Below, one piece after another: positions 1,190-14,066 of a DNA stretch of 21,175 nucleotides; positions within the stretch are counted from its first letter, which is position 1, and each line of letters starts with the position of its first letter. The stretch spans positions 1-21,175 of IMG/VR virus record IMGVR_UViG_3300042905_005706. The stretch is one strand, 5' to 3'. The stretch is from a virus. The notes under the pieces are model-generated. The model was not told where the DNA came from. It made no database searches and saw only the letters and a program-made list of their open reading frames with translations. Made by a program: the position numbers and the translations under genes.

Positions 1190-1208
1190 CTTACCGATAC
1201 TGTCAAGG
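1190..1208 (-). promoter_or_regulatory. 19-bp upstream element, copy 1
   Basis: On the plus strand CTTACCGATACTGTCAAGG; on the transcribed strand this gives TTGACA followed by TATCGGTAAG. It lies 62 bp upstream of the ATG at 1128. It shares an extended match with the copy at 2899, including the following TGCACCGGA. Confidence 0.65.
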
Positions 1209-1264
1209 CTTCGCGGGTTCCTGTCGTTCCGCGTTCCTGCCTGCCTGGGGTTGCGCGTATGTTA

Positions 1265-1290
1265 GCCCGGGTGCGTGTGTGCATCCGGGC
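1265..1290. other. Hairpin in leader region
   Basis: GCCCGGGTGC faces GCATCCGGGC around a 6-base GTGTGT loop (ten pairs with one wobble). It lies between two minus-strand genes. On the minus strand no T-run follows, so it is not a normal intrinsic terminator. A similar hairpin sits in the sister intergenic region at 2974-2992. Confidence 0.5.
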
Positions 1291-1307
1291 GCGTATATGC
1301 AAAAAAA

Positions 1308-1334
1308 GAGCAAAAAAGATTTTTCAATCTTCTC
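1308..1334 (-). terminator. Weak intrinsic terminator
   Basis: On the minus strand AAGATT, loop GAAA, AATCTT is followed by a run of T, overlapping the last codons of the gene ending at 1324. The stem is short and A/T-only, so termination would be weak. Confidence 0.35.
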
Positions 1335-1662
1335 CGATTGCTGCCAAAACTGCGCGGCGGGCGCGGGTTCGGATTGTCTCGGCCGCGTCTCGTGCGTCCT
1401 GGATTATCTGCGCGGCGTGTCGTTTTGCGCGTTCGATCTCGTCATTTTTCTCCTTTATCTTGCGTTGCTCCCACTGTGTTACTTCGTCAATGCGCTCTTT
1501 GCAAAGTGTTGTCATTGCTTCGAAGGATATCGGAAAAATATCCTGGCGTATCATTTCTTCCAGATACGGTATCTGGTCGGCTATGTAGGGCCCTAAGTAC
1601 GAATTGGGCCCTAATTGCTGCGCTGCTGTTCTCAGAATTTCTATCTCTTCTGCTTTCGTCAT
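1324..1662 (-). CDS. Hypothetical phage protein with C-terminal coiled coil
   Basis: A 112-residue protein. The ATG at 1662 is chosen because AAAGGGAAC lies just upstream; an upstream GTG would add seven residues. The N-terminal half reads LGPNSYLGPYIADQIPYLEEM, a compact helical region. The C-terminal half (about residues 60-110) is a continuous charged helix rich in E, K, R and A, likely a coiled coil ending RARRAVLAAIGED. It lies 14 bp downstream of the small zinc-site-like gene and probably shares its transcript. I do not recognise a family with confidence. Confidence 0.75.
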   Translation of the reverse strand: MTKAEEIEILRTAAQQLGPNSYLGPYIADQIPYLEEMIRQDIFPISFEAMTTLCKERIDEVTQWEQRKIKEKNDEIERAKRHAAQIIQDARDAAETIRTRARRAVLAAIGED

Positions 1663-1676
1663 CGTCGTTCCCTTTC

Positions 1677-1874
1677 TCACCAATTAGAGTCCGGCATATT
1701 CCAAGCTCGGGAAAATGCTCGGGCTCTCTCAAGCTCAAACTCGGTTTTGTAAAGTGTCGAGTCCTGGCAATATGCGGCGCGTCTGCGCTTGTCGTAGAAA
1801 ATCGGATCGCCTTTTTTTATCGGCTTATTCGTTTCGGCGCATGTTCCGCCGAATTTTGCAGTCATAAAATACAT
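1677..1874 (-). CDS. Small protein with possible Cys metal-binding fold
   Basis: A 65-residue protein. The ATG at 1874 has AAGGAG eight bases upstream; a GTG three codons earlier is possible but would bury that site. The pattern FGGTCAETNKPIKKGDPIFYD, then RRAAYCQD, resembles small phage and bacterial proteins in which a cysteine pair and a 'KGDPIxYD' turn form a zinc-finger-like unit that signals nucleic-acid or protein binding. Only two cysteines are visible here, so metal binding is uncertain. It is followed closely by the coiled-coil gene and preceded 13 bp away by another small gene, suggesting one operon from 2395 down to 1324. Confidence 0.75.
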   Translation of the reverse strand: MYFMTAKFGGTCAETNKPIKKGDPIFYDKRRRAAYCQDSTLYKTEFELERARAFSRAWNMPDSNW

Positions 1875-1886
1875 TTTCAGCACTCC

Positions 1887-2117
1887 TTATTTCAGGGGTA
1901 AAACGCGGCGGTTCTGTCTTAATGCTTGAATGTTCAGCCGCATATAATATTTGTCCTGCTCAATGCTTTGAACGTAGTCGCGCAGTCGCCGGTAGTTCAA
2001 GCGGGTTTCGGACATTGAAAAATAGCAATGAATATGCGCGTCGATCCAGTTTCTGCACTCGCGGATATTTCCGCGCAGTCTGGCTATCTCTGAAAGATAG
2101 TATTCGTCCTCTTGCAT
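1887..2117 (-). CDS. Hypothetical small helical protein
   Basis: A 76-residue protein of unknown function. I prefer the ATG at 2117 because AGAGGG lies six bases upstream. An ATG at 2132, overlapping the stop of the upstream gene as ATGA, would add five residues and would be translationally coupled. The sequence is tyrosine- and arginine-rich (SEIARLRGNIRECRNWIDAH, then RRLRDYVQSIEQDKYYMRL), predicted all-helical, with no membrane segment. It is in the middle of a four-gene run of tiny genes. Confidence 0.7.
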   Translation of the reverse strand: MQEDEYYLSEIARLRGNIRECRNWIDAHIHCYFSMSETRLNYRRLRDYVQSIEQDKYYMRLNIQALRQNRRVLPLK

Positions 2118-2128
2118 GTTATTCCCTC

Positions 2129-2395
2129 TCATCCTGGCAAGTTGTATGAAGGTGTCAGTTTAGCGCGTTCGATTGCTCGCCGGTGTTGTGTTTTATCGTT
2201 TTGATAGTGTTCTCTTTGTTCTGCTGCGGCTAGGGTTTCCCCCTCTGTGTCGTACCATATCGCGTTCTTGCGGTGCATCCTCATTAATGATCTCGCGTGG
2301 CTGGCGTATATTTGCCATAAAACGCGCTTTTCTGTTGTTTGGTTGTGCAAGTGAATCAAAACGATTCTGACTTTCTCACGTTTCCAGCGTGTCAT
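2129..2395 (-). CDS. Hypothetical small basic protein
   Basis: An 88-residue, strongly basic protein beginning MTRWKREKVRIVLIHLHNQ and containing several Arg and His residues; possibly nucleic-acid binding, but no known motif is visible. The ATG at 2395 has AAAGGAAC about ten bases upstream. The stop overlaps a possible start of the next gene. It is the first gene of the 2395-1324 run; upstream (2396-2456) is a short GC-rich spacer without a copy of the 19-bp element. Confidence 0.7.
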   Translation of the reverse strand: MTRWKREKVRIVLIHLHNQTTEKRVLWQIYASHARSLMRMHRKNAIWYDTEGETLAAAEQREHYQNDKTQHRRAIERAKLTPSYNLPG

Positions 2396-2456
2396 ATATC
2401 AAGTTCCTTTCTGGGGCCCTTGCGGACCCTCCGGGGTTGTGTGTGTTGGGGTTGGG

Positions 2457-2849
2457 TTATCCTGGGAAAAACTGGCTGCAATATCGTTCTATTGCTTCGT
2501 CTTCTTCCGTGGTTGTGTCATAGAAATCAATCCAGCCGGTTCCCCAATCTTGATATTGCAATCTACAATCTGTAGGACTGTCGCAATTATCAAACTTGCC
2601 TAAAATGCGCACTGCTGGGCCGCCGGTGCATAACAAAATATAAAACTCTTCGCGTTTTAAATCTTCGCCTGGATTTGTCCAGCCCGATCTAATCTGAATC
2701 TCCAGCGCGTCCTCCTGAATTGCTTCTGTGGCTTCGTCGTGCTTTTTCCAACTGCCGGACTCTTCTGCATCGGTTAAAGCTGCAATCAGTTCTACGATGC
2801 TATCAAGCTGGGCGCGGGCTTGGTCTTTTGCGTGGTTTGTCTCGGTCAT
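2457..2849 (-). CDS. Hypothetical acidic phage protein
   Basis: A 130-residue acidic protein. The ATG at 2849 follows an excellent GGAGGTAA ribosome site. The N-terminal 50 residues look helical (QLDSIVELIAALTDAEESG); the C-terminal part is a beta-rich domain with FYILLCTGGPAVRILGKFD and WGTGWIDFYDTTTEEDEA. I have seen similar 'VRI.G..D......LQYQDWGT.W' proteins among phage accessory genes, but assign no function. Its 185-bp leader holds a 19-bp element (2899-2918), a perfect dyad (2917-2935) and GGA triplets. It appears to be a single-gene unit. Confidence 0.78.
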   Translation of the reverse strand: MTETNHAKDQARAQLDSIVELIAALTDAEESGSWKKHDEATEAIQEDALEIQIRSGWTNPGEDLKREEFYILLCTGGPAVRILGKFDNCDSPTDCRLQYQDWGTGWIDFYDTTTEEDEAIERYCSQFFPG

Positions 2850-2898
2850 TGTATTACCTCCGTTTATGGTTGCCGGGCGTTGTTGCTCCGGTGCATGT

Positions 2899-2918
2899 CT
2901 TACCGATATTGTCAAAGG
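2899..2918 (-). promoter_or_regulatory. 19-bp upstream element, copy 2
   Basis: Plus strand CTTACCGATATTGTCAAAGG; the transcribed strand has TTGACAATATCGGTAAG. It lies 50 bp upstream of the ATG at 2849 and overlaps the GGTATTAAC dyad by two bases. It has one extra A compared with the other copies. Confidence 0.65.
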
Positions 2919-2935
2919 TATTAACTGTTAATACC
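2917..2935. repeat. Perfect 19-bp palindrome, likely operator
   Basis: GGTATTAAC T GTTAATACC: two 9-bp arms around one central base, directly abutting the 19-bp upstream element. Perfect symmetry and position suggest a dimeric regulator site. The regulator is not identified. Confidence 0.6.
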
Positions 2936-2973
2936 TGGGGCACTATGAAACGAGAGCGGGCGGGATGTGCCTA

Positions 2974-2992
2974 CCCGTGCGATATGCACGGG
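2974..2992. other. Hairpin CCCGTGC/GCACGGG
   Basis: Perfect 7-bp stem with loop GATAT between the genes ending at 3035 and starting at 2849. On the minus strand it lies after a T-rich stretch rather than before one, so it is not a standard terminator. It is the counterpart of the hairpin at 1265-1290. Confidence 0.5.
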
Positions 2993-3034
2993 CGGCGCGT
3001 GTATATAAAAGAGGAAAAAGAGAAAAGGGGAAAA

Positions 3035-3316
3035 TCAGGCGGGCGGTGTTGTGGCTTTGTCAATAGCGTCTAAGGCCTGTTTTAATGCCGGTTCTTCCCA
3101 GATCATGCCGTTGGCATTTGCTTCTTTTACAAGAAAACGCAATGCTGCCAACAAATCCGGCGCGGCTGCAATCAGTCGTGCGTCTGCATCTGTGGCGACA
3201 AAACGCGCAACAGTCGATGCCTTGTCGTAAAAACTACCACGCCAAACACTGCGGCTAAGACGGTTTTCATATTCCGGGCCAACTTGCCAAGGCCCTGGGG
3301 TATAGTTCGCACTCAT
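3035..3316 (-). CDS. Conserved phage protein of the TPGPW / DARLIAAAPDLLAAL type
   Basis: A 93-residue protein. It begins MSANYTPGPWQVG, and about residues 44-62 read DADARLIAAAPDLLAALRF. These two motifs are typical of a widespread family of small early proteins in temperate phages whose role is not known. The ATG at 3316 has AAAGG nine bases upstream. A 19-bp element lies 76 bp upstream (3392-3410), inside the 3' end of the neighbouring gene. The C-terminal part is helical (ALKQALDAIDKATTPPA). Family recognition is from the motifs only. Confidence 0.85.
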   Translation of the reverse strand: MSANYTPGPWQVGPEYENRLSRSVWRGSFYDKASTVARFVATDADARLIAAAPDLLAALRFLVKEANANGMIWEEPALKQALDAIDKATTPPA

Positions 3317-3375
3317 TTACTTGACCTTTCGTTGAAGTGTGGGCGGAATGAACCACCCACAAGTGATTGTTGTTG

Positions 3376-3705
3376 TTAAACCGACAATACGCTTGCCGAC
3401 TCTGCCGAGACCTCTTCAGGCACAGGCGGCACATATGGCACATCAAACTCATACCAATGTTCTGTTCTGGCGCAGGTATTGCTTACCCGTTCCGTGCGGT
3501 AGCACACCTGATAACACTCTCCATGAAAAAGAAGAAATTCTGGTCGATTGCGCGGTTGCAAATGAGAGCGAAGAATCTCGACAAGCTCTGTCTGCACTGC
3601 TTGAAGCTGCGAGTAATAAGGCTCTGTAAATTTGTTTCTCGATGCGGTTCGCAAAGCTACATCGTAACCTGACAACAACTCGCCGATCTTTTCTGCTAAG
3701 GTCAT
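3376..3705 (-). CDS. Hypothetical phage protein
   Basis: A 109-residue protein. ATG at 3705 with AGGAGA well placed upstream. The N-terminal half is helical (MTLAEKIGELLSGYDVALR, then LQAVQTELVEILRSHLQ); the middle has FLLFHGECYQVCYRTERV, a likely beta hairpin. The last residues, ESASVLSV, are encoded by the 19-bp upstream element of the next gene, so the C-terminus may be shaped by a DNA signal rather than by protein function; the next gene upstream ends in SASRLSV for the same reason. No function is assigned. Confidence 0.72.
   Translation of the reverse strand: MTLAEKIGELLSGYDVALRTASRNKFTEPYYSQLQAVQTELVEILRSHLQPRNRPEFLLFHGECYQVCYRTERVSNTCARTEHWYEFDVPYVPPVPEEVSAESASVLSV
3392..3410 (-). promoter_or_regulatory. 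19-bp upstream element, copy 3
   Basis: Plus strand CTTGCCGACTCTGCCGAGA, 76 bp upstream of the ATG at 3316 and inside the 3' end of the upstream gene. The TGCCGA hexamer is repeated with a 9-bp period. Confidence 0.65.
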
Positions 3706-3729
3706 CTGACTGTCTCCTGTTAGGATACT

Positions 3730-3747
3730 GGTATCTACCGTTAATAC
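3730..3747. repeat. Degenerate GGTAT/AATAC dyad
   Basis: GGTAT and AATAC arms with an 8-bp centre, 25 bp upstream of the ATG at 3705. A weaker member of the GGTATT/AATACC family. Confidence 0.35.
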
Positions 3748-3753
3748 TGCTAC

Positions 3754-4014
3754 TCAAACTGACAACCGACTTGCCGATCCTGCTGAGGCTTGGGCGTCTG
3801 GATGATCCCAGCCCAACGACTCAATCAGTTCGATCTTCTCCGCGATCTCCTGGCCTTCTGCTGCCTGCTCGCACGCTGAGAAAGGAAGAAGGAAGGATTC
3901 ATGAGAAGAAAGAAAAGAATCAATCTCTGTCTCTCTTGACTGCAAAGCCAGCAAAAGCGGGCCGCGGTCGAGTTCGTGCATCTGCCTTATTTCCTGCAAG
4001 CTGGGCCACTGCAT
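3754..4014 (-). CDS. Hypothetical phage protein
   Basis: An 86-residue acidic protein. ATG at 4014 with AAGGGT seven bases upstream. Mostly helical: LDRGPLLLALQSRETEIDSF, a hydrophobic turn FLLPFSACEQAAEG, then EIAEKIELIESLGWDHPD. The end, SAGSASRLSV, is encoded by the 19-bp element. A GGTTAATACC half-dyad lies 20 bp upstream of the start and an intrinsic terminator of the preceding gene lies at 4046-4073, so the gene probably has its own promoter in a 56-bp gap or is fed by read-through. Function unknown. Confidence 0.7.
   Translation of the reverse strand: MQWPSLQEIRQMHELDRGPLLLALQSRETEIDSFLSSHESFLLPFSACEQAAEGQEIAEKIELIESLGWDHPDAQASAGSASRLSV
3770..3788 (-). promoter_or_regulatory. 19-bp upstream element, copy 4
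   Basis: Plus strand CTTGCCGATCCTGCTGAGG, 65 bp upstream of the ATG at 3705, within the last codons of the upstream gene. After the element a TTGTC-GTTT-like sequence follows, shared with copy 3. Confidence 0.65.
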
Positions 4015-4033
4015 GTTTTACCCTTTTTGTTCT

Positions 4034-4043
4034 GGTTAATACC
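4034..4043. repeat. GGTTAATACC site
   Basis: A single copy of the GTTAATACC arm seen in the dyad family, 20 bp upstream of the start at 4014. Confidence 0.35.
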
Positions 4044-4045
4044 GG

Positions 4046-4073
4046 GGATTAAATGAGGGGGAATGCCCCCTCA
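4046..4073 (-). terminator. Intrinsic terminator
   Basis: On the minus strand TGAGGGGG, loop CATT, CCCCCTCA, then TTTAA. Perfect 8-bp GC-rich stem that includes the TGA stop of the gene ending at 4071. The T-run is short, so strength is uncertain. Confidence 0.6.
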
Positions 4074-4370
4074 CGCGCACTCGTCGCATTCTAAAACAGC
4101 CGTGTCTTCTTGCACTCTGCCGCAGGTACGACAACGAGGTTCTGGATCGTTCTCGCAGATTGGCTCGGGTTCACCTGGTTCTACTTCTTCCCATTCAGTT
4201 GCGTAAAGGTGGTCTAATGTATCGCCATTCACGCGACGAATTGAATCTGAGAAGAGCGATTCTCCGATCGAAACAGCTTCCTCCCTGCTTTCTGCTCTAA
4301 CGTGGCCGCAATGTTCTTCCTTGTGACCGTAAGCGTTAGATGTCACAAACACGTTGTAAATCTTGATCAT
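4071..4370 (-). CDS. Small protein with C-terminal zinc ribbon
   Basis: A 99-residue protein. The ATG at 4370 has AGGAGAG a few bases upstream. The N-terminal 50 residues form a beta-alpha unit (MIKIYNVFVTSNAYGH, then AESREEAVSIGESLF) of the kind seen in small phage proteins that modify or bind partners. The C-terminus has CRTCGR at about residues 80-85 and CDEC at 95-98, two CxxC pairs that would bind one zinc ion. A zinc ribbon suggests nucleic-acid or protein contact. A 19-bp element lies 46 bp upstream and an intrinsic terminator ends the gene, so this is a clear single-gene unit. Confidence 0.75.
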   Translation of the reverse strand: MIKIYNVFVTSNAYGHKEEHCGHVRAESREEAVSIGESLFSDSIRRVNGDTLDHLYATEWEEVEPGEPEPICENDPEPRCRTCGRVQEDTAVLECDECA

Positions 4371-4415
4371 TTCTCTCTCCTGCGTCTTGGGGTTTGTTGT
4401 TCAGTCAACGTCCCT

Positions 4416-4434
4416 CTTGCCGAACATGCCGAGG
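4416..4434 (-). promoter_or_regulatory. 19-bp upstream element, copy 5
   Basis: Plus strand CTTGCCGAACATGCCGAGG, 46 bp upstream of the ATG at 4370, the shortest spacing in the set. The direct repeat TGCCGA with 9-bp period is perfect here. It sits in the gap between genes, so its conservation is not due to coding. Confidence 0.7.
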
Positions 4435-4436
4435 TG

Positions 4437-4790
4437 TTAATCCTCTTCTTTGTATCGTTTAATCCACGGGTGAATCTCTTTCTCTTTGAACTTCGCAAAC
4501 CTGGGCAGAAACTTGTCGTAGTTCAAAGAAAAAGGTTTCAAATGGTAGCAGTAGGCATCGAGAAAGTTAAAAACAAAAGATTCGAGCGAACGAATCTCCT
4601 GCTTAAATGTTCCTTTGCCATCATTTCGTGGCAGAGTAATAACAAGCCTGGGCCTGTTGTTTGTTACCGTGACAGCAGCAGGAACCTCGAATCGCTTGCA
4701 GACATATTGCCAGCGTTCCAAGTCTTCCGGTTTGATCCCGTAATATCGCGGATCTTCGTCCGAAGGTATATTTTCGCGTTCCATGTTCAT
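4437..4790 (-). CDS. Hypothetical phage protein
   Basis: A 117-residue protein. The ATG at 4790 overlaps the stop of the upstream gene as ATGA and has GGAAACGGA before it, so translation is coupled; a second ATG at 4784 is possible. Features are YYGIKPEDLERWQYVCKRF (helical), AAVTVTNNRPRLVITLPR (beta hairpin), then a helical FVFNFLDAYCYHLKPF and a basic tail FAKFKEKEIHPWIKRYKEED. Partner of a ribbon-helix-helix-like gene in a two-gene operon. No known family recognised. Confidence 0.72.
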   Translation of the reverse strand: MNMERENIPSDEDPRYYGIKPEDLERWQYVCKRFEVPAAVTVTNNRPRLVITLPRNDGKGTFKQEIRSLESFVFNFLDAYCYHLKPFSLNYDKFLPRFAKFKEKEIHPWIKRYKEED

Positions 4791-4993
4791 TCCGTTTCCG
4801 GTGGCCAACGACGCGGCGGCGTTCTCAGGCTGTGTTTTTTCGCATATTCGTTGCAACACAACTCTAAAAACTCGGAAATAGAAAGGCCCGAGTCCGCTGC
4901 CAAACAGCGGAGCCAGTGCCTGTATTCGTTGCTCGTGCGGAACACAACCTGCATAGTGGCGTATTCTCGCACCTTTTTCTTAGGTGTCGGCAT
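4787..4993 (-). CDS. Ribbon-helix-helix-like small DNA-binding protein
   Basis: A 68-residue protein. ATG at 4993 with a perfect AGGAGG nearby. The core MQVVFRTSNEYRHWLRCLA, followed by LSISEFLELCCNEYAKK, fits the beta strand, helix A, turn, helix B order of ribbon-helix-helix proteins; 'RTSNEYRHWLRxLA' is common among phage proteins of this kind. A proline- and arginine-rich tail follows. It could be a repressor of its own operon: an inverted repeat (5008-5034) lies 15 bp upstream of its start. DNA binding is inferred, not shown. Confidence 0.75.
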   Translation of the reverse strand: MPTPKKKVREYATMQVVFRTSNEYRHWLRCLAADSGLSISEFLELCCNEYAKKHSLRTPPRRWPPETE

Positions 4994-5007
4994 AGTATCC
5001 TCCTGCC

Positions 5008-5034
5008 ATCCTGTATTGCCCGTTAATACAGGAT
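5008..5034. promoter_or_regulatory. 10-bp inverted repeat, likely operator
   Basis: ATCCTGTATT, 7-bp spacer, AATACAGGAT. Perfect arms just upstream of the ribbon-helix-helix-like gene. It contains GTTAATAC, linking it to the dyad family. It also lies downstream of ssb, so a transcript hairpin or terminator role is possible, but no T-run follows. Confidence 0.5.
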
Positions 5035-5053
5035 AGCAGAAAAGAAAGAGGGA

Positions 5054-5371
5054 TCAATAGGGCGGTTCGTTGTCGTCAGCGTAGTTGACTCCGGCGGCCG
5101 GCGCGAAGATCTCGACCGTGAGCGCGAACAAAGTCAGGTTGCAATAGCCTTTGTCGTTGATCCGCCCGCCGATCGCACCTTGCACGCAAACCGCATCGTT
5201 GGGCCTGATCTTCTGGAAGTCTTCCGACTTGCCCAGCACTTCGATCGGCTCAGTGCGGTTGGCCTTGCTATTGTGGCTATCCAGAACCACCTTGTAATAG
5301 CTGCCCTGGCCGACTGGAGTGGCCGCGTGACGAGCAATGCCGGAGATGGCGAACGTGTTAATTGCTGACAT
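5054..5371 (-). CDS. ssb: Single-stranded DNA-binding protein (SSB-like)
   Basis: A 105-residue protein, shorter than cellular SSB (about 160-180). It begins MSAINTFAISGIARHAATP, followed by GSYYKVVLDSHN, an OB-fold start, then VLGKSEDFQKIRPNDAVCVQGAIGGRI and YCNLTLFALTVEIFAP, matching the strands in which SSB has '...GDxVxVxGxL' and '...LxAxxIxxL'. The C-terminus DDNEPPY resembles the acidic SSB tail (DDDIPF) that binds replication and repair enzymes. The ATG at 5371 overlaps the exonuclease stop, so the two are translationally coupled. It would coat ssDNA during phage replication and recombination. Confidence 0.8.
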   Translation of the reverse strand: MSAINTFAISGIARHAATPVGQGSYYKVVLDSHNSKANRTEPIEVLGKSEDFQKIRPNDAVCVQGAIGGRINDKGYCNLTLFALTVEIFAPAAGVNYADDNEPPY

Positions 5372-6308
5372 ATTCTGTGTCCTGTTTGGTTGAGGTCAGG
5401 GAAAGGATTGCATCTTCCTTCGGAAGAAAGCGTCGAGAAATCGTTTGCTTTGTGTACTGCTTGGCCAGATCCGGGTAATCGGTCTTAAATCGGGCCGAGT
5501 CGAAAGAGTTCGATACCGACTCTTTCCATGTCACAACTGTCTGGCCTGAATACAAGCCGACTTCGGCCGTATCGAGCCTGTTTTTGACCAGTTTCTCCAA
5601 TACCGCGATCTCGTCGGCAGCAGGAGCATTCCGGCGCTTCAGTTCAGCCAGTTTCCGCAGGTATCCGAGCGTTTCGGCATCGAGATCAACACTCTTGCCC
5701 GACTCTGCCCGGATCGCAGCCTTCAGCTCTTCGCTTTCGGCCGTCTTGGCGTCTTTCGGCACTTCTTCGTTGCCTTGGATGTATCGCTCCCAGAATCGCT
5801 TACATTCGCGAACTGCGTCGATGAACCAAGAAGACTGAAGCGAAGGCGTGATCTCGTAGATCGCGACCTTCAACCCCTCACCATGCAGGCACGCCAGATA
5901 GGCCCGGTCGATACCGGCCACCCAAGCCTGCCAGTTGACCTGGAGCAGGTAGTGTTCTGGCACTATGTCCCAGCTTCGCTGATGCGTCGTTTTGATCTCA
6001 AGGATCGCGCGGTCGTCGCCTTGGCCGATAATATAATCTGGCGTGGCGCTGGCCCAGCCGTCGGCGTGCTGCAAGAAGGGCTCTTCCAGCAGGATATTCC
6101 CGCCGATCAGCTTCAGGGCCTCCATGGCAACACCGTATTGAAGGTAATTGCCGAGGCGGGTACTCTGCGTTTCTTCCCGATCGTCGAACCCTGACTTTTC
6201 CAGCCAGAGCTGGCGAGGGCTGCTCCAAGGCGATATGCCAACCACAATCGGGGCGTCGGAAGCTCCGATCGTGTACCGGCGTCGTTCGCGTTGTTCGTCA
6301 GTCAGCAC
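5358..6308 (-). CDS. YqaJ-type viral recombination exonuclease
   Basis: A 316-residue protein. The start is GTG at 6308 with AAGGAA six bases upstream; longer frames would lack a ribosome site. Family signs are GASDAPIVVGISPW at residues 15-28, GVAMEA near residue 63, PDYII with Asp91, ILEIKTT with Glu104 and Lys106, and PEHYLLQVNWQ with Gln123. These are the PD-(D/E)xK nuclease residues of the YqaJ/lambda Red alpha group, which degrade one strand of duplex DNA to give 3' tails for a strand-annealing partner. It overlaps the small gene upstream and ssb downstream. The likely partner is encoded at 12878-13735. A 19-bp element lies 54 bp upstream. Confidence 0.9.
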   Translation of the reverse strand: MLTDEQRERRRYTIGASDAPIVVGISPWSSPRQLWLEKSGFDDREETQSTRLGNYLQYGVAMEALKLIGGNILLEEPFLQHADGWASATPDYIIGQGDDRAILEIKTTHQRSWDIVPEHYLLQVNWQAWVAGIDRAYLACLHGEGLKVAIYEITPSLQSSWFIDAVRECKRFWERYIQGNEEVPKDAKTAESEELKAAIRAESGKSVDLDAETLGYLRKLAELKRRNAPAADEIAVLEKLVKNRLDTAEVGLYSGQTVVTWKESVSNSFDSARFKTDYPDLAKQYTKQTISRRFLPKEDAILSLTSTKQDTEYVSN

Positions 6309-6603
6309 TGTTTTCCTTCTTTCGTTTCTGGTCAAAAAGGTGGTTAAGGTTCCGCGTTGCTCTTGCCGATCGCGCCGAGGTCTTTGGTAACTCTTTGGGC
6401 ACCTGTGCATACTGGTAGTCACGATCGATCGAAACATCTTCGATCGTCAGCAGATGCGACTTGATGATCTCGCCTTGAAGCCAAAGGTCGTGCCTGGCGG
6501 TAGAGGTGCCATCTTCAAGGTATCGCTTGATCTTGTGGTAAGCGTCTCGCAGCAAGACTACCTGAGCAATCTCCTGCGTCGATCGTTTTGTGGTTTCATC
6601 CAT
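6298..6603 (-). CDS. Hypothetical protein between resolvase and exonuclease
   Basis: A 101-residue basic protein of unknown function. ATG at 6603 overlaps the end of the RuvC-like gene by 8 bases, and its own 3' end overlaps the exonuclease start by 11 bases, so it is embedded in the recombination operon and probably co-translated. The first 60 residues are helical (STQEIAQVVLLRDAYHKIKR, then HDLWLQGEIIKSHLL); the C-terminus is basic and probably disordered (FDQKRKKENSAD). Part of that tail (SARSARATR) is encoded by the 19-bp element of the exonuclease gene. Confidence 0.7.
   Translation of the reverse strand: MDETTKRSTQEIAQVVLLRDAYHKIKRYLEDGTSTARHDLWLQGEIIKSHLLTIEDVSIDRDYQYAQVPKELPKTSARSARATRNLNHLFDQKRKKENSAD
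6362..6380 (-). promoter_or_regulatory. 19-bp upstream element, copy 6
   Basis: Plus strand CTTGCCGATCGCGCCGAGG, 54 bp upstream of the GTG at 6308, inside the C-terminal codons of the overlapping upstream gene. The most GC-rich copy. Confidence 0.6.
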
Positions 6604-7970: not shown

Positions 7971-8187
7971 TGCTGGCCTCCAGTTCTTCGCAGTATTTTT
8001 TAGCTTTGGCAAGTGTAGGAAATGTTTTGCGTGATTGATCGCTACTCATAAGACCGGAGCAACTGTTTTCGAGCATGAATGTGCCGTCCCCGCAAACGTC
8101 AATCACCCATGATTTCGGCTCGTCGGCTCCATTTTTTTTCTTGGAGTTGGCGTCCCATTGGCCGAAGCCGTCAAATGTCCAGATCAT
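7954..8187 (-). CDS. Hypothetical small phage protein
   Basis: A 77-residue protein. ATG at 8187 with AGGAT seven bases upstream. It reads as a small beta domain (MIWTFDGFGQWDA, WVIDVCGDGTFMLENSC) followed by a C-terminal helix (LAKAKKYCEELEAS). The pattern 'W...D...GTF.L......S..FPTLAKAKKYCE' resembles small phage proteins of unknown role. It overlaps the next gene by 17 bases. The 48-bp gap upstream contains a short ACGAAA/TTTCGT hairpin. Confidence 0.72.
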   Translation of the reverse strand: MIWTFDGFGQWDANSKKKNGADEPKSWVIDVCGDGTFMLENSCSGLMSSDQSRKTFPTLAKAKKYCEELEASNGNQA

Positions 8188-8235
8188 TTTTTATCCTCGC
8201 TGTTGCTCACGAAATCGGTTTCGTTACCAGACGTT

Positions 8236-8592: not shown

Positions 8593-9116
8593 GATTTCAT
8601 CGCTTTCATGCCTTTTATTTCTGATTCAAGACCTCTAATCTTTTCTTGGTTCTTGACTATTTCGCCCATTAAAAAGCCTTTATTTCGGTGCAGATCACTG
8701 TTGGCATGTTCTAGTGATTTTATTTCAAGGGCCTGTCTGTGCATCCCTCTGTTAAGCATCCTTAGCTCCCTTCGCTGGTGCTTAATCCGCCGCTGCAATG
8801 CCGCACGCTGAAACACTTGAGCCGGTATAGCGGTGCTTTCCAGTTGTTTTGCCTTCTCCTCAAGGTGGTGGACATATTTTGCGACCACATTCTGCCAGTA
8901 TGACGCTGATAAAGGTGACTCCATTGCTATCAAATATTCTTTAGCATCTTGCCACGGATCAGATGCTTGTTTTTCAAGTTCGGCAATCTTTGTCTCAAAC
9001 ATTTTGATTCGAGAAATCAAGAAATCATCTGTACGCATGTCTTGATGCGCGATCAATCTTAATGCCGCTTCAAGTGCCGATTTATCAGCTTTCAACTGTT
9101 CAATCTGCTCTTTCAT
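8589..9116 (-). CDS. Coiled-coil phage protein
   Basis: A 175-residue protein. ATG at 9116 with GGGGGAG upstream. Almost wholly helical with heptad patterns: QIEQLKADKSALEAALRLIA, MFETKIAELEKQ, then a basic middle LQRRIKHQRRELRMLNRGM and a final coiled coil IVKNQEKIRGLESEIKGM. The basic segment could bind nucleic acid. It overlaps the Ea22-like gene by 4 bases and follows the next gene upstream by 2 bases, so it is translationally coupled. No specific family recognised. Confidence 0.78.
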   Translation of the reverse strand: MKEQIEQLKADKSALEAALRLIAHQDMRTDDFLISRIKMFETKIAELEKQASDPWQDAKEYLIAMESPLSASYWQNVVAKYVHHLEEKAKQLESTAIPAQVFQRAALQRRIKHQRRELRMLNRGMHRQALEIKSLEHANSDLHRNKGFLMGEIVKNQEKIRGLESEIKGMKAMKS

Positions 9117-9118
9117 TT

Positions 9119-9496
9119 TTACTCCCCCCACACTGGAACGACCTTTCTGTCAATGCTATCGCCGATAGATTCCATAGCATCTTGTTTTGAAAAATACATG
9201 CGATACTTTGTGCTGCCCATGATCCCTCTGGATCTCGCCTCATAATCAGGCTCTCCGGCGGCAATCACAGCCCACAGTGGCTTGTATCCGCCTGCGGCGG
9301 ACTCAGGCTCCTCTGGCGGGTTGCCCTGAATCAAGTTGGTAATCTGATGGGCCAGTGAGTCCAGTTTGGCATTGAGTTGGTCGTTGATCAACTGGATAGC
9401 TTCGTCAGAGACAAGGCCGGGCATGTCTTGTCTGACGTGACGCAGGCTCTCTTTCATGCCCTGAATACGTTTGTACTGTTCAACTAACTCTCTCAT
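9119..9496 (-). CDS. Hypothetical phage protein
   Basis: A 125-residue protein. ATG at 9496 with GAGGA next to it and AAAGG a little further upstream, 3 bases after the thyX stop. The N-terminal 60 residues are helical (MRELVEQYKRIQGMKESLRH, then LNAKLDSLAHQITNLIQ); a linker PPEEPESAAGG leads to a beta-rich end LWAVIAAGEPDYEARSRG with YFSKQDAMESIGDSIDRKV. The end resembles the small 'Kxxx F.s..dA..yi' domains of phage accessory proteins. No function assigned. Confidence 0.75.
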   Translation of the reverse strand: MRELVEQYKRIQGMKESLRHVRQDMPGLVSDEAIQLINDQLNAKLDSLAHQITNLIQGNPPEEPESAAGGYKPLWAVIAAGEPDYEARSRGIMGSTKYRMYFSKQDAMESIGDSIDRKVVPVWGE

Positions 9497-9499
9497 TCC

Positions 9500-10264
9500 T
9501 CAAACCTTTCTAAATGGCGTTGTCACGCCATCTTCGGTTATCTGGTAATCGCCAAAAATGTTTGGTGCCGCATCTTGCAGCTTCTTCATGACCGCAACAG
9601 ACAACCTTTGCATTTCAGCATCTGCATGGATCGAACCTCGCAGCTCGACAAAGTGCCGCCAGGCACGGGCGTTGCCTGTGACAAATATCTTTGTTTCGGT
9701 GCAGTTGGGTAAAACTGACCTTGCAGCCTCGCGGGCCTTCTTGCGACGAAGTGTGGCATCTTGAATTGATTCGTCTTGTAGCAGACTTGCCAGTTTTGAA
9801 TACATAATTTGCGATTCTTTGCAGGACTGCTCCCACAAATCATAGGTGTATCCATTAAATTCATCTTTTTTTATCCCCGGTGGCAACACAAACGCACATT
9901 CCGACTCGTCTACATACCGCTGCGATAACTGCGAGAATCCGAAGCCTGCCCTATGCCGCACCAGTTCATGCGTGAGAGACCGGGAAACTCCGGTAATAAG
10001 CAGGCTGAACACAGCATGCTCCAGCACTGAACCATGTCCGACTTCCAAGATATGCCCGACATACGACTTGTTGCCGCCGGGACGGGGCTTGGCAAAAGAC
10101 ATGTAGCAGAGCCGGCCTGCAATCTCGACAAGCCTTTCAGCTTCGCTGCCAGTGTCGGTCTGCCAGTCCGGCACCCGCTCCGAATGCAGAAATTGCTCCA
10201 GCTCCTCAAAACCCGTTTCCTGAAAACCCACCAGATACACACTTGGTTCAGTAATAATTCTCAT
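9500..10264 (-). CDS. thyX: Flavin-dependent thymidylate synthase ThyX
   Basis: A 254-residue protein of normal ThyX length. It makes dTMP from dUMP using FADH2 and methylenetetrahydrofolate. VGHGSVLEHAVFSLLITGVS at residues 75-94 and VRHRAGFGFSQLSQRYV at 102-118 are the family signature; the second holds the RHR at 103-105 and the conserved SQRY. There are eight residues between RHR and that serine instead of the usual seven (see findings). The later LRGSIHADAEMQRL is the helix that binds nucleotide. The ATG at 10264 overlaps the CsrA-like stop as ATGA, so the two are coupled. The gene would supply dTMP for phage replication whatever the host's own enzyme. Confidence 0.93.
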   Translation of the reverse strand: MRIITEPSVYLVGFQETGFEELEQFLHSERVPDWQTDTGSEAERLVEIAGRLCYMSFAKPRPGGNKSYVGHILEVGHGSVLEHAVFSLLITGVSRSLTHELVRHRAGFGFSQLSQRYVDESECAFVLPPGIKKDEFNGYTYDLWEQSCKESQIMYSKLASLLQDESIQDATLRRKKAREAARSVLPNCTETKIFVTGNARAWRHFVELRGSIHADAEMQRLSVAVMKKLQDAAPNIFGDYQITEDGVTTPFRKV

Positions 10265-10431
10265 TTTGACTTGTCCTCTTTCTTGATACGCGACACCTGA
10301 CAGGCTCTCGGTGCATCCACGCCCAGTTTGATTGCCTGAGCTGAAGTGCATTTAATCTTGAGCGTAATCGGGTCGCACCCAGGCGGCTCCAGACGCACCA
10401 TCTCCCCGTCTTTAACACGCAATACAAGCAC
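10261..10431 (-). CDS. csrA: CsrA-like RNA-binding regulator (phage-encoded)
   Basis: A 56-residue protein, close to CsrA size (about 61). The GTG at 10431 follows a strong GGAGGAAC site. It begins MLVLRVKDGEMVRLEPPG, matching the CsrA start 'MLVLTRKxGE.i.I', and goes on with PITLKIKCTSAQAIKLGVDA and PRACQVSRIKK, matching 'i.v.vl.i.g..vrlGi.APk.v.V.R.Ei'. CsrA dimers bind GGA motifs in mRNA leaders and usually block translation. The RNA-contact Arg near position 44 of CsrA has a counterpart in QVSRIKK. It is first in an operon with thyX (ATGA overlap) and has a 19-bp element 72 bp upstream. Targets are unknown. Confidence 0.85.
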   Translation of the reverse strand: MLVLRVKDGEMVRLEPPGCDPITLKIKCTSAQAIKLGVDAPRACQVSRIKKEDKSK

Positions 10432-10468
10432 TGTCGTTCCTCCGTTGCAAATGCTCTCTGTTGTGCAA

Positions 10469-11140
10469 TCACCACTGCTCGACTAGCAGCTCGTCTTCCT
10501 TGCTTGCCGAGACTGTCGAGGCGGCGGGCCTTGTACGTTTAACAGGCTGGACAGGCTGTTTTTGTGGATTTCGAACAGTATCTACCCACGCCGTAAATAT
10601 TCCGTCCTGAAACTGCAACGGCTTGTCCGGATCAATACTGTTTCTTTTTAACCACTCGCGGTGCCTGTTTCTCGCCGCCAGATTCTCTCGTCGCGCTGCC
10701 GCCATCGCTTCCGGTGATGCCATCGGCACTCCTGCATAGGCCATGCTCGCCGCACAGTCGCATCGATACGCCGCTTTAAACAGTTCGCCAGATCGATGAA
10801 CCTGCTCGACCATCACAACGCCGATTCCGTCGCAAAACTCGCAAACACAATCCGGTACAGCCGGCGAGGCGGCAGGGGCACGATCCTTCTTTGTGCCGAC
10901 CTGAATAAATTCTGCATAAGCTGGCAAAACTGCCCCAATGCCTTTGCCAATTACTGTCAATGAAAAGTCGATTGCAATATCTTTGAGCTGTTCTGTCTTG
11001 CCCAGCAGCTTGCTCTTCGTAAGCAGCTTTTGCCATGCCGGCAACAGGCTTGTGATTGTCCGCTCGACCGCCTCGTTCTCGATGTTGTATCCGCGCGTCT
11101 GGTAGATTCCTTCGACGTATTCGCTGATCCAGTTATCCAT
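10469..11140 (-). CDS. Zinc-finger replication-associated protein, possible helicase loader
   Basis: A 223-residue protein. The ATG at 11140 lies within the last codons of the initiator gene (AAAGGT nine bases upstream), so the two are coupled. The first 80 residues are helical (MDNWISEYVEGIYQTRGYN, then LLPAWQKLLTKSKLLGKTE). Residues around 98-130 have CVCEFCDGIGVV and YRCDCAAS, a four-cysteine zinc site. A basic, disordered C-terminus includes PVQPVKRTRPAAS. No Walker motif is seen, so it is not DnaC-like. By position after an origin-bearing initiator it may be an analogue of lambda P, the helicase loader; that is inference. Its 3' end encodes the 19-bp element of the CsrA-like gene. Confidence 0.75.
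   Translation of the reverse strand: MDNWISEYVEGIYQTRGYNIENEAVERTITSLLPAWQKLLTKSKLLGKTEQLKDIAIDFSLTVIGKGIGAVLPAYAEFIQVGTKKDRAPAASPAVPDCVCEFCDGIGVVMVEQVHRSGELFKAAYRCDCAASMAYAGVPMASPEAMAAARRENLAARNRHREWLKRNSIDPDKPLQFQDGIFTAWVDTVRNPQKQPVQPVKRTRPAASTVSASKEDELLVEQW
10503..10521 (-). promoter_or_regulatory. 19-bp upstream element, copy 7
   Basis: Plus strand CTTGCCGAGACTGTCGAGG, 72 bp upstream of the csrA-like GTG at 10431 and inside the C-terminal codons of the upstream gene (STVSASK). Confidence 0.65.
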
Positions 11141-12035
11141 GTTTGGCTACCTTTCTCTTGGCGGCTTGGGCGGCTAATTCTGCCTCCGCCTTGTCCCACT
11201 CCTTTTGAAAGTCCGCCCACATGGCGTTTCGCTTCGCTTTGCGGGCTGCTCTCGCTTCCTCCTTGGCCTTGTCGGGGTTTTCCCAGTCAAACTTCCATTC
11301 TGTCTTTCGCAAGTAATTGTAGAGCCTTCCAGGCGTCTCGTTGCCCTTGACTCGTTTCAATGCGTATTCGACAAACCCGGAGTCGATCTGGAGCTGGTTG
11401 ACCGAAGCCAGAATCCCGTCTGCATCTGGGCCGAGAATCGACAGCACCTTGTCGCGGAGTCCGGGCGGAAATTTGGGAGCGATCAGCTTGGGTGAATCGA
11501 TCCGCACCGACCGCTGGGGCTGAGGCGGTTTTTCGTTTGAAGGTATTGGGGCGAGAAAATCATCCGGGCTGCTGCTGGTGATCGCACTCTTATCAGCACT
11601 AATACGACTGGTTGTACTCTTATTAAAACCATTGGTATTAATACCTATATAAGAGGGTGGTGTTTTTACCACCTTCAGAGAGTGGTGTTCTTGCCCCCCT
11701 CTGAGAGTGGTGTTTTCGCCACCTTCGGAAAAGCATGGCGTTTTGTCGGATGGCTCGATTATTGTTACTGTTACAACCGAACCTTTTCCCGGAACAACTT
11801 CTCGCGCCCGTTTGATCAGCCCAGCGTCTTCCAGTTCCCGGTAATGGTCTTTGATTCGATCTTCTGACATGCCTCTCAGCTTCGCCACTTTTGCGACCGT
11901 GGGCGTTTCGAACCAGCATCGATGCTGCTGATTGAAGAAGCTGTAGATTGCAAGAATGGTCAGCCTTGCACCATCAGATATGGGCGCATCGAACCAACCG
12001 TGAAACATTTTCGTGTAGCCCGCTGGGTTTCGCAC
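11133..12035 (-). CDS. Replication initiator-like winged-helix protein carrying the origin
   Basis: A 300-residue protein. I choose GTG at 12035, with AAGGAA seven bases upstream; an extension to 12167 would cross a terminator structure. Residues 10-100 form a winged helix: KMFHGWFDAPISDGARLTIL, then ETPTVAKVAKLRGMSEDRIK and HYRELEDAGLIKRAREVVPG, typical of phage and plasmid initiators that bind iterons. The middle (about 105-130) is encoded by three 25-bp repeats. The C-terminal third includes PGLRDKVLSILGPDADGI and GRLYNYLRKTEWKFDWENPD, then a long basic and Ala-rich helix. The layout of DNA-binding N-terminus, origin in the middle and partner gene next is like lambda O. Function is inferred from fold and context. 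Confidence 0.8.
   Translation of the reverse strand: MRNPAGYTKMFHGWFDAPISDGARLTILAIYSFFNQQHRCWFETPTVAKVAKLRGMSEDRIKDHYRELEDAGLIKRAREVVPGKGSVVTVTIIEPSDKTPCFSEGGENTTLRGGQEHHSLKVVKTPPSYIGINTNGFNKSTTSRISADKSAITSSSPDDFLAPIPSNEKPPQPQRSVRIDSPKLIAPKFPPGLRDKVLSILGPDADGILASVNQLQIDSGFVEYALKRVKGNETPGRLYNYLRKTEWKFDWENPDKAKEEARAARKAKRNAMWADFQKEWDKAEAELAAQAAKRKVAKHG
11634..11645. repeat. GGTATTAATACC palindrome in putative origin
   Basis: A perfect 12-bp palindrome at the edge of the iteron block, a member of the GGTATT/AATACC dyad family otherwise found upstream of genes. It may be a binding site shared by regulator and origin. Confidence 0.5.
11652..11726. repeat. Three 25-bp tandem iterons
   Basis: Copies at 11652-11676, 11677-11701 and 11702-11726, each containing GTGGTGTT and a pyrimidine-rich CC end, with exact 25-bp period. 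A decayed fourth copy may follow from 11727. Twenty-five is not a multiple of three, so the repeats encode three different peptides (such as EGGENTTLR, GGQEHHSL and KVVKTPPS). The conservation therefore acts on DNA. GGTG and CACC arms give each copy partial dyad symmetry. Confidence 0.8.
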
Positions 12036-12045
12036 TTTTCTTTCC

Positions 12046-12073
12046 TTGTATTTACCGTATCTTTTTGTATAAT
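12046..12073 (+). promoter_or_regulatory. Sigma-70-like promoter for short divergent RNA
   Basis: TTGTAT (12046-12051), 16-bp spacer, TATAAT (12068-12073) followed by G, on the plus strand. The -10 box is perfect. It points away from the initiator gene, whose start at 12035 is 11 bp to the left. Confidence 0.65.
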
Positions 12074-12079
12074 GAAGTG

Positions 12080-12129
12080 ACGCATGTTCTTTCCGCCTCG
12101 CAGTAATTCGAATACTGCGGGGTTTTTTT
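12080..12129 (+). ncRNA. Predicted ~50-nt small RNA upstream of the initiator gene
   Basis: A short plus-strand unit with the promoter above, about 50 nt of sequence and a strong intrinsic terminator. No reading frame of note is present. It is antisense to the leader of the minus-strand initiator transcript, if that transcript starts upstream. Its position and length recall lambda OOP RNA, which starts next to gene O and runs away from it, and also countertranscribed RNAs that limit initiator synthesis in plasmids. Expression is predicted, not shown. Confidence 0.55.
12096..12129 (+). terminator. Strong intrinsic terminator on the plus strand
   Basis: CCTCGCAGTA, loop ATTCGAA, TACTGCGGGG, then seven T. 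Ten paired bases with one wobble. No plus-strand coding gene lies upstream, so it must serve the short RNA. On the minus strand the same hairpin is followed by no T-run. Confidence 0.8.
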
Positions 12130-12241
12130 ATATCTTGCCGCTCAGAACACGCCTTGTTCCGATACACATTGGATCGTTGCCCGAAAGGTCAATGAGGGCC
12201 GCCACGACAAGAAGCTGCAACCTGGAGAGTCCCGTTTTATA
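12130..12241. other. Spacer between initiator leader and upstream gene
   Basis: No gene or clear promoter is seen. The sequence is the probable 5' leader region of the initiator transcript, if it is not made by read-through from the operon upstream. A weak resemblance to the 19-bp element (TATCGGAACAAGG on the minus strand near 12145-12157) is too poor to count. Confidence 0.4.
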
Positions 12242-12598
12242 CTAATTATCCTTAGTGTCTTGGTCAATACTGTCACCAACAAGCTTAAGTATTGAGTCAA
12301 TTAATTTGTCGGCTTCTCGAACTGACGGCACATTGATGGCGGTAATATTCCAGCCATCAACAATAACGGCGAATATCTCTTTCTGGTTATTGCTTCGCAG
12401 TGCGATTGCGCCGCATATTTCCATTCTGTTCTTTGTAAATTGCCGCGAAACAACTTTGCCGAGGATTCTGGCAAACATGTTTGATACCGATTTGTCTGCG
12501 TATTTCCTGGAAGGCATTAACAATGTGCCCTTATACGCATAAAAATCAAACACGTACTCGACATAGCCGCGAGAGTAGATTGCTGGAACTCCTGCCAT
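12242..12598 (-). CDS. Hypothetical phage protein
   Basis: A 118-residue protein. ATG at 12598 with AAGGGG eight bases upstream; it begins 1-2 bases from the end of the preceding gene. A beta-rich fold is suggested: VPAIYSRGYVEYVFDFYAYK, then MEICGAIALRSNNQKEIFAV and IVDGWNITAINVPSV, with a C-terminal helix ADKLIDSILKLVGDSID. No known family seen. Probably the last gene of the operon that starts with the 14066 gene. Confidence 0.72.
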   Translation of the reverse strand: MAGVPAIYSRGYVEYVFDFYAYKGTLLMPSRKYADKSVSNMFARILGKVVSRQFTKNRMEICGAIALRSNNQKEIFAVIVDGWNITAINVPSVREADKLIDSILKLVGDSIDQDTKDN

Positions 12599-12599
12599 C

Positions 12600-12875
12600 T
12601 CATTGCCCCTTATCTTTAAATGTTCTTCTGTATCGCCTTCTTGCTTCCTTTTCACGATCAACAATCAGGTGAGCAAATACAAAACTGGCGGCCTTGCTTG
12701 TCACTTTTTCGTATCGCCTGAGCAGCATGTCCATCGACTGAACTTGCAGGGAAGCTATCGGAACTGTCTTTTTTATGCCTGGCGGAATGGATTCTATTTC
12801 AGCCAGCGGATGTTTCAGGCTGGTGACGGCCCAGAGGCGACCGTCACCCTTGACCTTTACGATGTCACCGTCCAT
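12600..12875 (-). CDS. Hypothetical small basic protein
   Basis: A 91-residue protein. ATG at 12875, 2 bases after the stop of the annealing-protein-like gene. The start MDGDIVKVKGDGRLWAVTSL has the feel of a small SH3/KOW-type beta barrel ('GDIVKVKG.GRLW.V'), followed by a basic helical tail (REKEARRRYRRTFKDKGQ). This may bind nucleic acid. Its place behind a recombination gene suggests an accessory role. Function not assigned. Confidence 0.72.
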   Translation of the reverse strand: MDGDIVKVKGDGRLWAVTSLKHPLAEIESIPPGIKKTVPIASLQVQSMDMLLRRYEKVTSKAASFVFAHLIVDREKEARRRYRRTFKDKGQ

Positions 12876-12877
12876 GA

Positions 12878-13735
12878 TCAGTACGTCCCGGCATACTCTT
12901 CGCTAGCGGAATTAAGCCGCATCGCAAGATCAGATGCCGTGCGTATCATCGCGTCCTTGTCAGCCTGTTCTGATCCCTCATAGCAGCGTCCAAGTGCCGC
13001 TCCCTTGTCCTTCCACGTGGCCGCTTCCAAGGGGCCAAGCTCGTCCATGTAGTACGGTTTAACGACCTGAAACAATTCCTCGGTAAATGTCGGGAACGAG
13101 AGGCCGTTTTTCTCCACAATATTCTTGATCATAACTCCGAACTTCGGCCCTGAGCTGGCAGCAGCAGGGGCAGGAGCCGGGCTTTCCGGGCTCGGAAGCG
13201 ACTTTGTGACCGGCTCGGTTTCAACAGCGCGGGTCTCAGTTTCGACCTTGCGGGCTTGCGGAATCGTCTCGACTTCGGTTTCATCGAGCATCCCAAGGCC
13301 GCATAAAGATAGCGTAAGACGCCTTTTAGCTTTCGTCTCAGCCTTGAGGTAAGCATTCGCAAGACCCTCTCCTTTGAGTCCACCCAAATACACTGCACCG
13401 CTGGCGACGTCCATACGGCCAGTCTTGTCCTGGCCCTTGACGATGACTGTAAGAACATCGCCGTTTATCTGCTGTTCCATGTCCATCACAGAAACACCGT
13501 ACACTCGGCGAAGCTGCTCAGCACAGTTGCGGTTGGCATACAGGGTCAGTTTGTTATTCAGAACGATATAGTCAAAGGGCTTGGTGAGCGGATTCAGCCC
13601 GAGGCTGTCGCAAACCTGCCGATAGTAAATAGCTCGCTGGTCGTGCGTGAGCTTGGAGAGATCGCCGCCGATCAGCACTCGCTCAATCTCGCCGTACTCA
13701 TTCGACTGCGTAGTTGGCTGTATGTCCTGATTCAT
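12878..13735 (-). CDS. Putative single-strand annealing / recombination protein
   Basis: A 285-residue protein. ATG at 13735 with AAAGGT eight bases upstream (GTG at 13756 is the alternative). Residues 28-75 read LTHDQRAIYYRQVCDSLGLN, then NPLTKPFDYIVLNNKLTLYA and NRNCAEQLRRVYGVSV; later GAVYLGGLKGEGLANAYLKA and ETKAKRRLTLSLCGLGMLDE. These motifs occur in a common phage family in the position of RecT/Erf-type annealing proteins. A Pro/Ala/Ser linker (about residues 178-200) joins a C-terminal helical domain. It is the likely partner of the YqaJ exonuclease, but the two genes are 7 kb apart, which is unusual. A 19-bp element lies 71 bp upstream. Confidence 0.78.
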   Translation of the reverse strand: MNQDIQPTTQSNEYGEIERVLIGGDLSKLTHDQRAIYYRQVCDSLGLNPLTKPFDYIVLNNKLTLYANRNCAEQLRRVYGVSVMDMEQQINGDVLTVIVKGQDKTGRMDVASGAVYLGGLKGEGLANAYLKAETKAKRRLTLSLCGLGMLDETEVETIPQARKVETETRAVETEPVTKSLPSPESPAPAPAAASSGPKFGVMIKNIVEKNGLSFPTFTEELFQVVKPYYMDELGPLEAATWKDKGAALGRCYEGSEQADKDAMIRTASDLAMRLNSASEEYAGTY

Positions 13736-14066
13736 TGTCGTCACCTTTCTTTTCACTGTCTGTTACTGTTAGGTTTTCTGCCGTTTCCGGCTCGTCTGCA
13801 ATCAGCTTGCCGAAGCTGTCGAGGACTCCAATATCTAAAATGAGATTGGGTCTATCCCGCTCGATCAGCTTCCTGTTCTGGTAATCAATCGCGAAGTAAT
13901 GCGTTTTCTTGCCGGTCAGCGTGACAATCGACGGCCGATAGTTCGATTGCAATAAAATCGAAAAGAAATCGCTTTCAAAGGCCGCCCAATGCGAATTGAA
14001 ATACTTGCCCATATCCTCAAGGTGATCAGCCATTCGCATCAGCTCGCCAGATCGTTCTGCCAGCAT
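13698..14066 (-). CDS. Hypothetical phage protein
   Basis: A 122-residue protein. ATG at 14066 with AAAGGAG six bases upstream. The N-terminal helix is MLAERSGELMRMADHLEDMG; a beta-rich middle follows (FFSILLQSNYRPSIVTLTGK, HYFAIDYQNRKLIERDRPNL), then an acidic disordered tail (ETAENLTVTDSEKKGDDNES). It overlaps the start of the annealing-protein-like gene by 38 bases, so the tail is the part that carries the next gene's ribosome site and 19-bp element. No function assigned. Confidence 0.72.
   Translation of the reverse strand: MLAERSGELMRMADHLEDMGKYFNSHWAAFESDFFSILLQSNYRPSIVTLTGKKTHYFAIDYQNRKLIERDRPNLILDIGVLDSFGKLIADEPETAENLTVTDSEKKGDDNESGHTANYAVE
13806..13824 (-). promoter_or_regulatory. 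19-bp upstream element, copy 8
   Basis: Plus strand CTTGCCGAAGCTGTCGAGG, 71 bp upstream of the ATG at 13735 and inside the upstream gene (LDSFGKLIADE). It is the rightmost copy; none is seen from 13825 to the end of the window. Confidence 0.65.

Follow-up and report, generated by a model that had tools for sequence, protein, structure and literature searches.

What is the role of a short sequence that recurs, always in one orientation, ahead of the early genes of a phage? The question is raised by a metagenomic IMG/VR virus record (IMGVR_UViG_3300042905_005706, 21,175 bases, hereafter the window), which by its gene content represents a temperate tailed phage, the integrase marking it as temperate. 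Along the minus strand, which is the transcribed one, the element reads CCTYGRCA-N3-TCGGYAAG (reverse complement CTTRCCGAN3TGYCRAGG) and is bipartite, with a length of 19 bp. Because it recurs at homologous genes of related phages, is constrained, and stays in place when the genes downstream are swapped, sequence comparison gives good support to its being a real, oriented cis-element of the phage for early or middle genes. It is probably a control signal common to exchangeable gene cassettes. As to how it is read, we favour a DNA site with a phage regulator over a signal at the RNA level, and the latter over silencing of the stoperator type.

Copies of the element in the window

A first-pass annotation, made from the letters of the window, had listed eight copies in one orientation, and all eight were verified. 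Copy 1 (13806-13824, on the minus strand like all others, CCTCGACAGCTTCGGCAAG) lies within the 3' part of the open reading frame (ORF) 13698-14072, 70 bases before the start of the RecT-like gene 12878-13735. Copy 2 (10503-10521, CCTCGACAGTCTCGGCAAG), at the 3' end of ORF 10469-11140, is separated by 71 bases from the CsrA-like gene 10261-10431, and copy 3 (6362-6380, CCTCGGCGCGATCGGCAAG), within ORF 6298-6603, precedes by 53 bases the gene of a RecE/YqaJ-like exonuclease (5358-6308). The intergenic copy 4 (4416-4434, CCTCGGCATGTTCGGCAAG) is 45 bases away from gene 4071-4370, while copies 5 (3770-3788, CCTCAGCAGGATCGGCAAG) and 6 (3392-3410, TCTCGGCAGAGTCGGCAAG) are 64 and 75 bases away from genes 3376-3705 and 3035-3316, respectively. 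Lastly, copies 7 (2899-2917, CTTTGACAATATCGGTAAG) and 8 (1190-1208, CCTTGACAGTATCGGTAAG), both intergenic, lie 49 and 61 bases ahead of genes 2457-2849 and 802-1128. The spacing from the element to the predicted start codon downstream is 45-75 bases across all eight copies; the annotation had given 46-76 bp.

The exact IUPAC string of the annotation is matched perfectly by four copies and with one mismatch by the other four. Allowing for at most one mismatch, the coding (minus) strand contains eight copies and the opposite strand none, as compared with 0 in 150 second-order Markov simulations and 0.01 in dinucleotide shuffles. An unsupervised motif search in the regions upstream of the window starts, a check proposed in the annotation, recovers the element unprompted; an earlier run with longer, start-overlapping regions had missed it, and the tighter regions recovered it. 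The element was also said to be absent to the right of position 13824, and indeed no copy with two mismatches or fewer is found there, a three-mismatch match at 14004 being at chance level. Column information reports no significant conservation in the window columns outside the element.

The annotation further held that protein coding could not explain the repeat, which is borne out by the three intergenic copies and by one in-gene copy in another frame. Of the five in-gene copies, however, four (3392, 3770, 6362, 10503) share a single reading frame, S-A-x-S-A-S/R, so that coding is not fully independent at those copies, and copy 13806 overlies residues xGKxxA, which are conserved in the protein of other lineages too. 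These copies would be in keeping with a recurrent C-terminal peptide (SAxSAS/R) or an xGKxxA motif that mimics a DNA repeat, but this explanation is contradicted by the intergenic copies and by the difference in frames. Moreover, the motif is kept in relatives and in a second lineage described below, where many copies start right at the stop codon of the preceding gene or beyond it. We consider such a coincidence extremely improbable.

Two of the intergenic copies have neighbours of their own. A perfect 21-bp palindrome, AGGTATTAACAGTTAATACCT (~2917-2937), abuts the element at 2899, and part of it, GTATTAAC, recurs near 3740 and 4040. Upstream of the elements at 1190 and 2899, a pyrimidine-rich tract is followed by a GC hairpin (~1225-1305 and 2958-3030), in an order that, on the transcribed strand, is the reverse of that in a normal terminator.

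Constraint and gene exchange in close relatives

The sequences compared here, from three lineages, are all metagenomic fragments, and part of the motif work relied on our own scripts, with models trained on the scored sites. The window and its close relatives constitute lineage 1. Sense-strand copies occur at genes homologous to those of the window, seven in one record (L005/L324) and five in another (L181); the annotation had proposed such a search of related phages. Pattern scans of all viral contigs returned mostly chance hits in GC-rich coding DNA, yet they yielded L181. Copies 1 and 2 have orthologues in L324 at 1108 and 4387, respectively, and copy 3 in L324 at 9929 and in L181 at 1330.

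Comparison of orthologues reports differences at 13 of 192 element positions and at 186 of 720 flanking positions (Fisher p=5e-10), the element copies being about four times less variable than their flanks. The N3 spacer, which differs in 8 of 36 cases, is free to vary relative to the element positions. The element is kept in L324 after which, at copies 4416 and 2899, a different downstream gene is found; in the former case, an unrelated gene takes the place of gene 4071-4370. Conversely, copy 1190 and its gene have been lost together in L181, in which the segment corresponding to window positions ~796-1311 is missing. In this lineage, 5 of 33 alignment ends fall in the stretch from an element to the start codon that it precedes (1.8 expected).

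A common core in three lineages

Lineage 2 comprises G003, G005, and G007, identified by a terminase search and having syntenic early regions, together with L353, identified by a RecE search. Its RecT and RecE proteins share 56% and 58% identity with those of the window, respectively. The exact window 19-mer was not found in lineage 2. Instead, a motif search of its own reports TCGGTAWR-N5-TGYC upstream of early genes, including copies upstream of RecT and RecE, and the pattern YCGGTAWRN5TRNY has 12 matches in the lineage-2 record L344, all on the sense strand and at early genes, against 0.12 expected. The core begins 39-64 bases before the start codon. Copies 3770 and 3392 of the window possess the left half of lineage 1 and, at the spacing of lineage 2, the right half of lineage 2 (TTGTCAG and TTGTCGG, respectively). 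On the minus strand of L344, strong hairpins at reverse-complement positions 13765, 14116, 15754, and 16609 run from the right half of the element to a point short of the start codon; they are seen at some lineage-2 copies only.

Lineage 3, found with a small ribbon-helix-helix (RHH)-like protein as query, consists of the syntenic records L361 and L362, with 51% (RecT) and 48% (RecE) identity to the window. Its element, ATTAN5TYCGGTAA, has five sense matches at early genes against 0 expected, and is located mostly 53-62 bases before a start. The site upstream of RecT also contains TCGGTAAG, but this stretch encodes residues conserved in the protein and is thus weaker evidence. In L361 (3532-4283), duplicated gene cassettes, ~75% identical, stand side by side, and TCGGCAAG occurs at about the same place in each of them.

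The three lineages have the core YCGGYAA in common, while the partner half changes from one to the other: CCTYGRCA upstream of the core in the window, TGYC downstream in lineage 2, and ATTAT upstream in lineage 3. A half-site model, in which TYGRYA would form a direct repeat in lineage 1 and an inverted one in lineage 2, had some appeal, but it misfits the left half of lineage 3 and is not used here.

The elements of lineage 2 are also associated with the boundaries between cassettes. Of its 30 alignment ends, 19 fall in the zone from an element to the start codon that it precedes (2.7 expected), and several junctions are no more than a few bases away from the element; the pairwise comparisons, three per lineage, are not independent of each other. 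Since alignment ends cluster at the elements, the element also marks cassette boundaries. One may then ask whether the repeats serve only as short homology for cassette exchange and have no regulatory role. The alignment ends of both lineages, and the swaps and losses of cassettes at elements, speak for this explanation, within the limits of non-independent comparisons. However, homology alone requires no strict position or strand relative to start codons, nor does it explain a constraint that bears on specific positions and leaves N3 free (8/36 vs 13/192). We therefore hold a purely recombinational function to be very unlikely. Position, strand, and constraint suggest that the function of the element is linked to the 5' ends of early cassettes.

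Promoters and polymerases

The first-pass annotation had remarked that the element partly resembles a -35 box and that no -10 follows it. Indeed, no -10 at a fixed spacing after the element was found in lineages 1 and 2. Activator-dependent middle promoters of the MotA or Mor type carry a sigma-70 -10 at a set spacing. An activated sigma-70 promoter is thus unlikely. The earlier interpretation is supported in part, its broader claim of a phage-specific cis-element acting on early or middle genes being well supported. The promoter scan reports a sole good sigma-70 site on the minus strand, the top match TTGACA-N17-TAGAGT (14409-14437), a putative early promoter that has a counterpart in lineage 2 and no element nearby. 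Host promoters appear to be used where they are expected, and the elements look unlike them. A sigma-54 reading (GG-N10-GC) was dropped, as the spacing here is N8.

A promoter recognised by the transcription machinery of the phage itself, also put forward in the annotation, finds no candidate: neither an RNA polymerase, such as the single-subunit enzyme of the T7 type, nor a sigma factor was recognised among 57 early proteins, from genomes that are incomplete.

A DNA site or an RNA signal

Antitermination was the last of the functions suggested in the annotation, and it belongs to a wider set of RNA-level explanations, in which the element would function within the mRNA, be it nascent or mature, as an antitermination signal, as a site of specific processing that creates a new 5' end, or as the target of an RNA-binding phage protein controlling translation of the next gene. 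The copies are on the transcribed strand only, with their core starting 39-83 nt ahead of the start codon, and are followed by A-rich leaders. In lineage 2, a hairpin starts at the TGYC half of several copies (z about -3 to -6), and pairing of GGYA with TGYC is possible in 83% of cells, as compared with 26-55% upon sliding. However, the mean z of the fold is only -0.2 to -1.1, and the window copies show little. No covariation of GGYA and TGYC above shuffles and no both-sided change were observed, the left arm being too invariant to show covariation; in accessibility, the core does not exceed randomly chosen positions, and no Rfam match was returned for the element. The antitermination proposal, lacking general RNA structure or covariation, is retained within this wider RNA-level set, which we regard as possible and place second.

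A protein that might read such an RNA is encoded nearby. The gene 10261-10431 (minus strand), downstream of copy 2, is assigned to the CsrA family by a Pfam match (PF02599, E=1.2e-7) that clears the curated cut-off, and homologues adjoin the same genes in L344 of lineage 2 and in L361 of lineage 3 (2751-2939), so that all three lineages encode this RNA-binding family. The csrA gene has been reported in about 1% of phage genomes (PMC7366521). The GGA target bound by CsrA is not in the core, and CsrA was dropped as the reader.

The reading that we prefer, although we give it a little less than an even chance, is that of an orientation-dependent cis-regulatory DNA site, read by a DNA-binding regulator of the phage and controlling the early-gene cassette downstream. 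A host sigma-70 promoter near 14437 would drive the first genes leftward; an early phage protein would then bind the copies of the element, and, once bound, would alter transcription entering or starting at each cassette, either activating or silencing it. The sequences themselves show that the element is present, on which strand and where, that it is constrained, that it occurs in three lineages, and that it goes with cassette boundaries in lineage 2; a DNA rather than an RNA target, a protein as reader, the identity of that protein, and the sense of its action are inferred. A plausible candidate for this protein is the product of gene 4787-4993 (minus strand), a small, probable RHH DNA-binding protein according to weak sequence and fold matches, which is conserved in all three lineages. 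The structure prediction for another ORF, 14150-14350, was too poor for use (predicted local distance difference test, pLDDT, 63).

Several points weigh against a DNA site with a phage regulator. The fixed relation to start codons would fit an RNA-level signal equally well, and there is the missing -10. Neither the element nor a recognisable half-site was found at the early promoter (~14350-14960), and no known family of transcription regulators or activators was recognised among the 57 early proteins. The RHH assignment is weak, with no Foldseek E below 2.6. Lastly, the partner halves of lineages 1 and 3 look unrelated, and a common reader is an assumption.

A further reading, which we consider doubtful, is a family-wide bipartite expression code of temperate phages: most early-gene cassettes would have an oriented signal of their own, made up of the fixed core YCGGYAA and a lineage-specific partner half, by which a phage factor would start or gate transcription with no need of a sigma-70 -10, the cassettes being swapped with their signal.

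Comparison with known phage repeats

The stoperators of the cluster A mycobacteriophages, such as the repressor sites of L5 and TipsytheTRex, are 13-mers bound by a helix-turn-helix repressor, and are also present at promoters (PMC9283540). Like the element, they are short, numerous and asymmetric sites, placed in one orientation relative to transcription between temperate-phage genes, with lineage-specific variants. Unlike them, the element is 19 bp long, bipartite, absent from the early promoter, and located in a fixed zone before start codons. By analogy, a lysogen repressor bound to the asymmetric sites could stop leaky transcription of the early operon, the partner halves representing immunity groups. 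The integrase, the single orientation, the location at gene boundaries of the early region, the lack of promoters at the copies, and the lineage-specific variants all agree with this layout (PMC9283540). However, stoperator repressors also bind promoter operators, whereas no copy is at the early promoter; no repressor was recognised among the early proteins, and the set distance before start codons is left unexplained. Silencing of this type seems unlikely to us.

The SAS of cluster K directly precedes the start codon, while the ESAS beside it is a 17-bp inverted repeat with subcluster-specific variants (PMC3203893). Both resemble the element in being repeated, oriented, linked to starts, and conserved across gene families, but the element is 45-75 bases from the start, bipartite, and non-palindromic. 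Indeed, dyad symmetry in the window consensus is restricted to C1, T3, A8, and their mirror positions, and the lineage-2 element is an imperfect dyad only. The cluster O repeats (17-bp palindromes without orientation bias, PMC4351075) and the CR3/CR4 repeats of cluster M, where inserted genes bring their own repeat (PMC7953290), are likewise short, intergenic, multi-copy, and mostly without promoters; the consensus of the element is unrelated to theirs, and the element, unlike the cluster O repeats, is oriented and not palindromic. The T4 MotA box (PMC2988021) and the Mu Mor site (PMC4390567) are phage-specific elements upstream of middle genes, unlike the window element in their sigma-70 -10. 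Finally, a nut-type antitermination site differs in its conserved RNA hairpin (boxB) adjoining a linear box, no general hairpin or covariation being seen here. By this comparison, the element appears to work like the oriented phage repeats of this class and to belong to no described family.

The phage and its genes

The tyrosine integrase (14939-16126, plus strand; PHROG integrase, E=1.1e-37) is followed by a leftward early block encoding RecT-like, replication-initiation, CsrA-like, ThyX, RuvC-like, RecE/YqaJ-like, and SSB-like proteins, of which the first and the last are named after general features of their sequences. Campylobacter phages encode relatives of the RecT-like protein. In the relatives of the window, a large terminase and a putative portal follow beyond its left end. 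With the whole window as query, megablast against phages returned 0 matches, and the terminase shares only ~27% identity with known terminases; the family thus appears to be outside the annotated collections, with nothing close among annotated phages. No host prophage was found in genome contigs searched with RecE and TerL.

Adjoining the integrase, the plus strand carries the 3' half of a tRNA-like sequence (~14796-14862, CACTCGGTAGGGC...GGTTCGAGTCCTGCCGAGTGCA), probably the attachment site; L344 possesses another, different tRNA-like end at the equivalent place. The tRNA-like sequence could point to the host. Between the integrase and the tail genes, a gene on the minus strand (16368-17318) encodes a DNA methyltransferase of the C5-cytosine type (PHROG_363, E=3.8e-65).

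Implications

Several clusters of mycobacteriophages are known to carry short, oriented repeats ahead of early genes, among them the stoperators, the SAS/ESAS, and the repeats of clusters M and O. The element described here provides an independent case, in which one half-site is kept across three lineages while the other has changed. This natural series provides a direct route to the reader and to its specificity. It also shows how a common control signal could let phages add or swap accessory genes and, if the bipartite code holds true, cassettes would be exchangeable with their signal attached.

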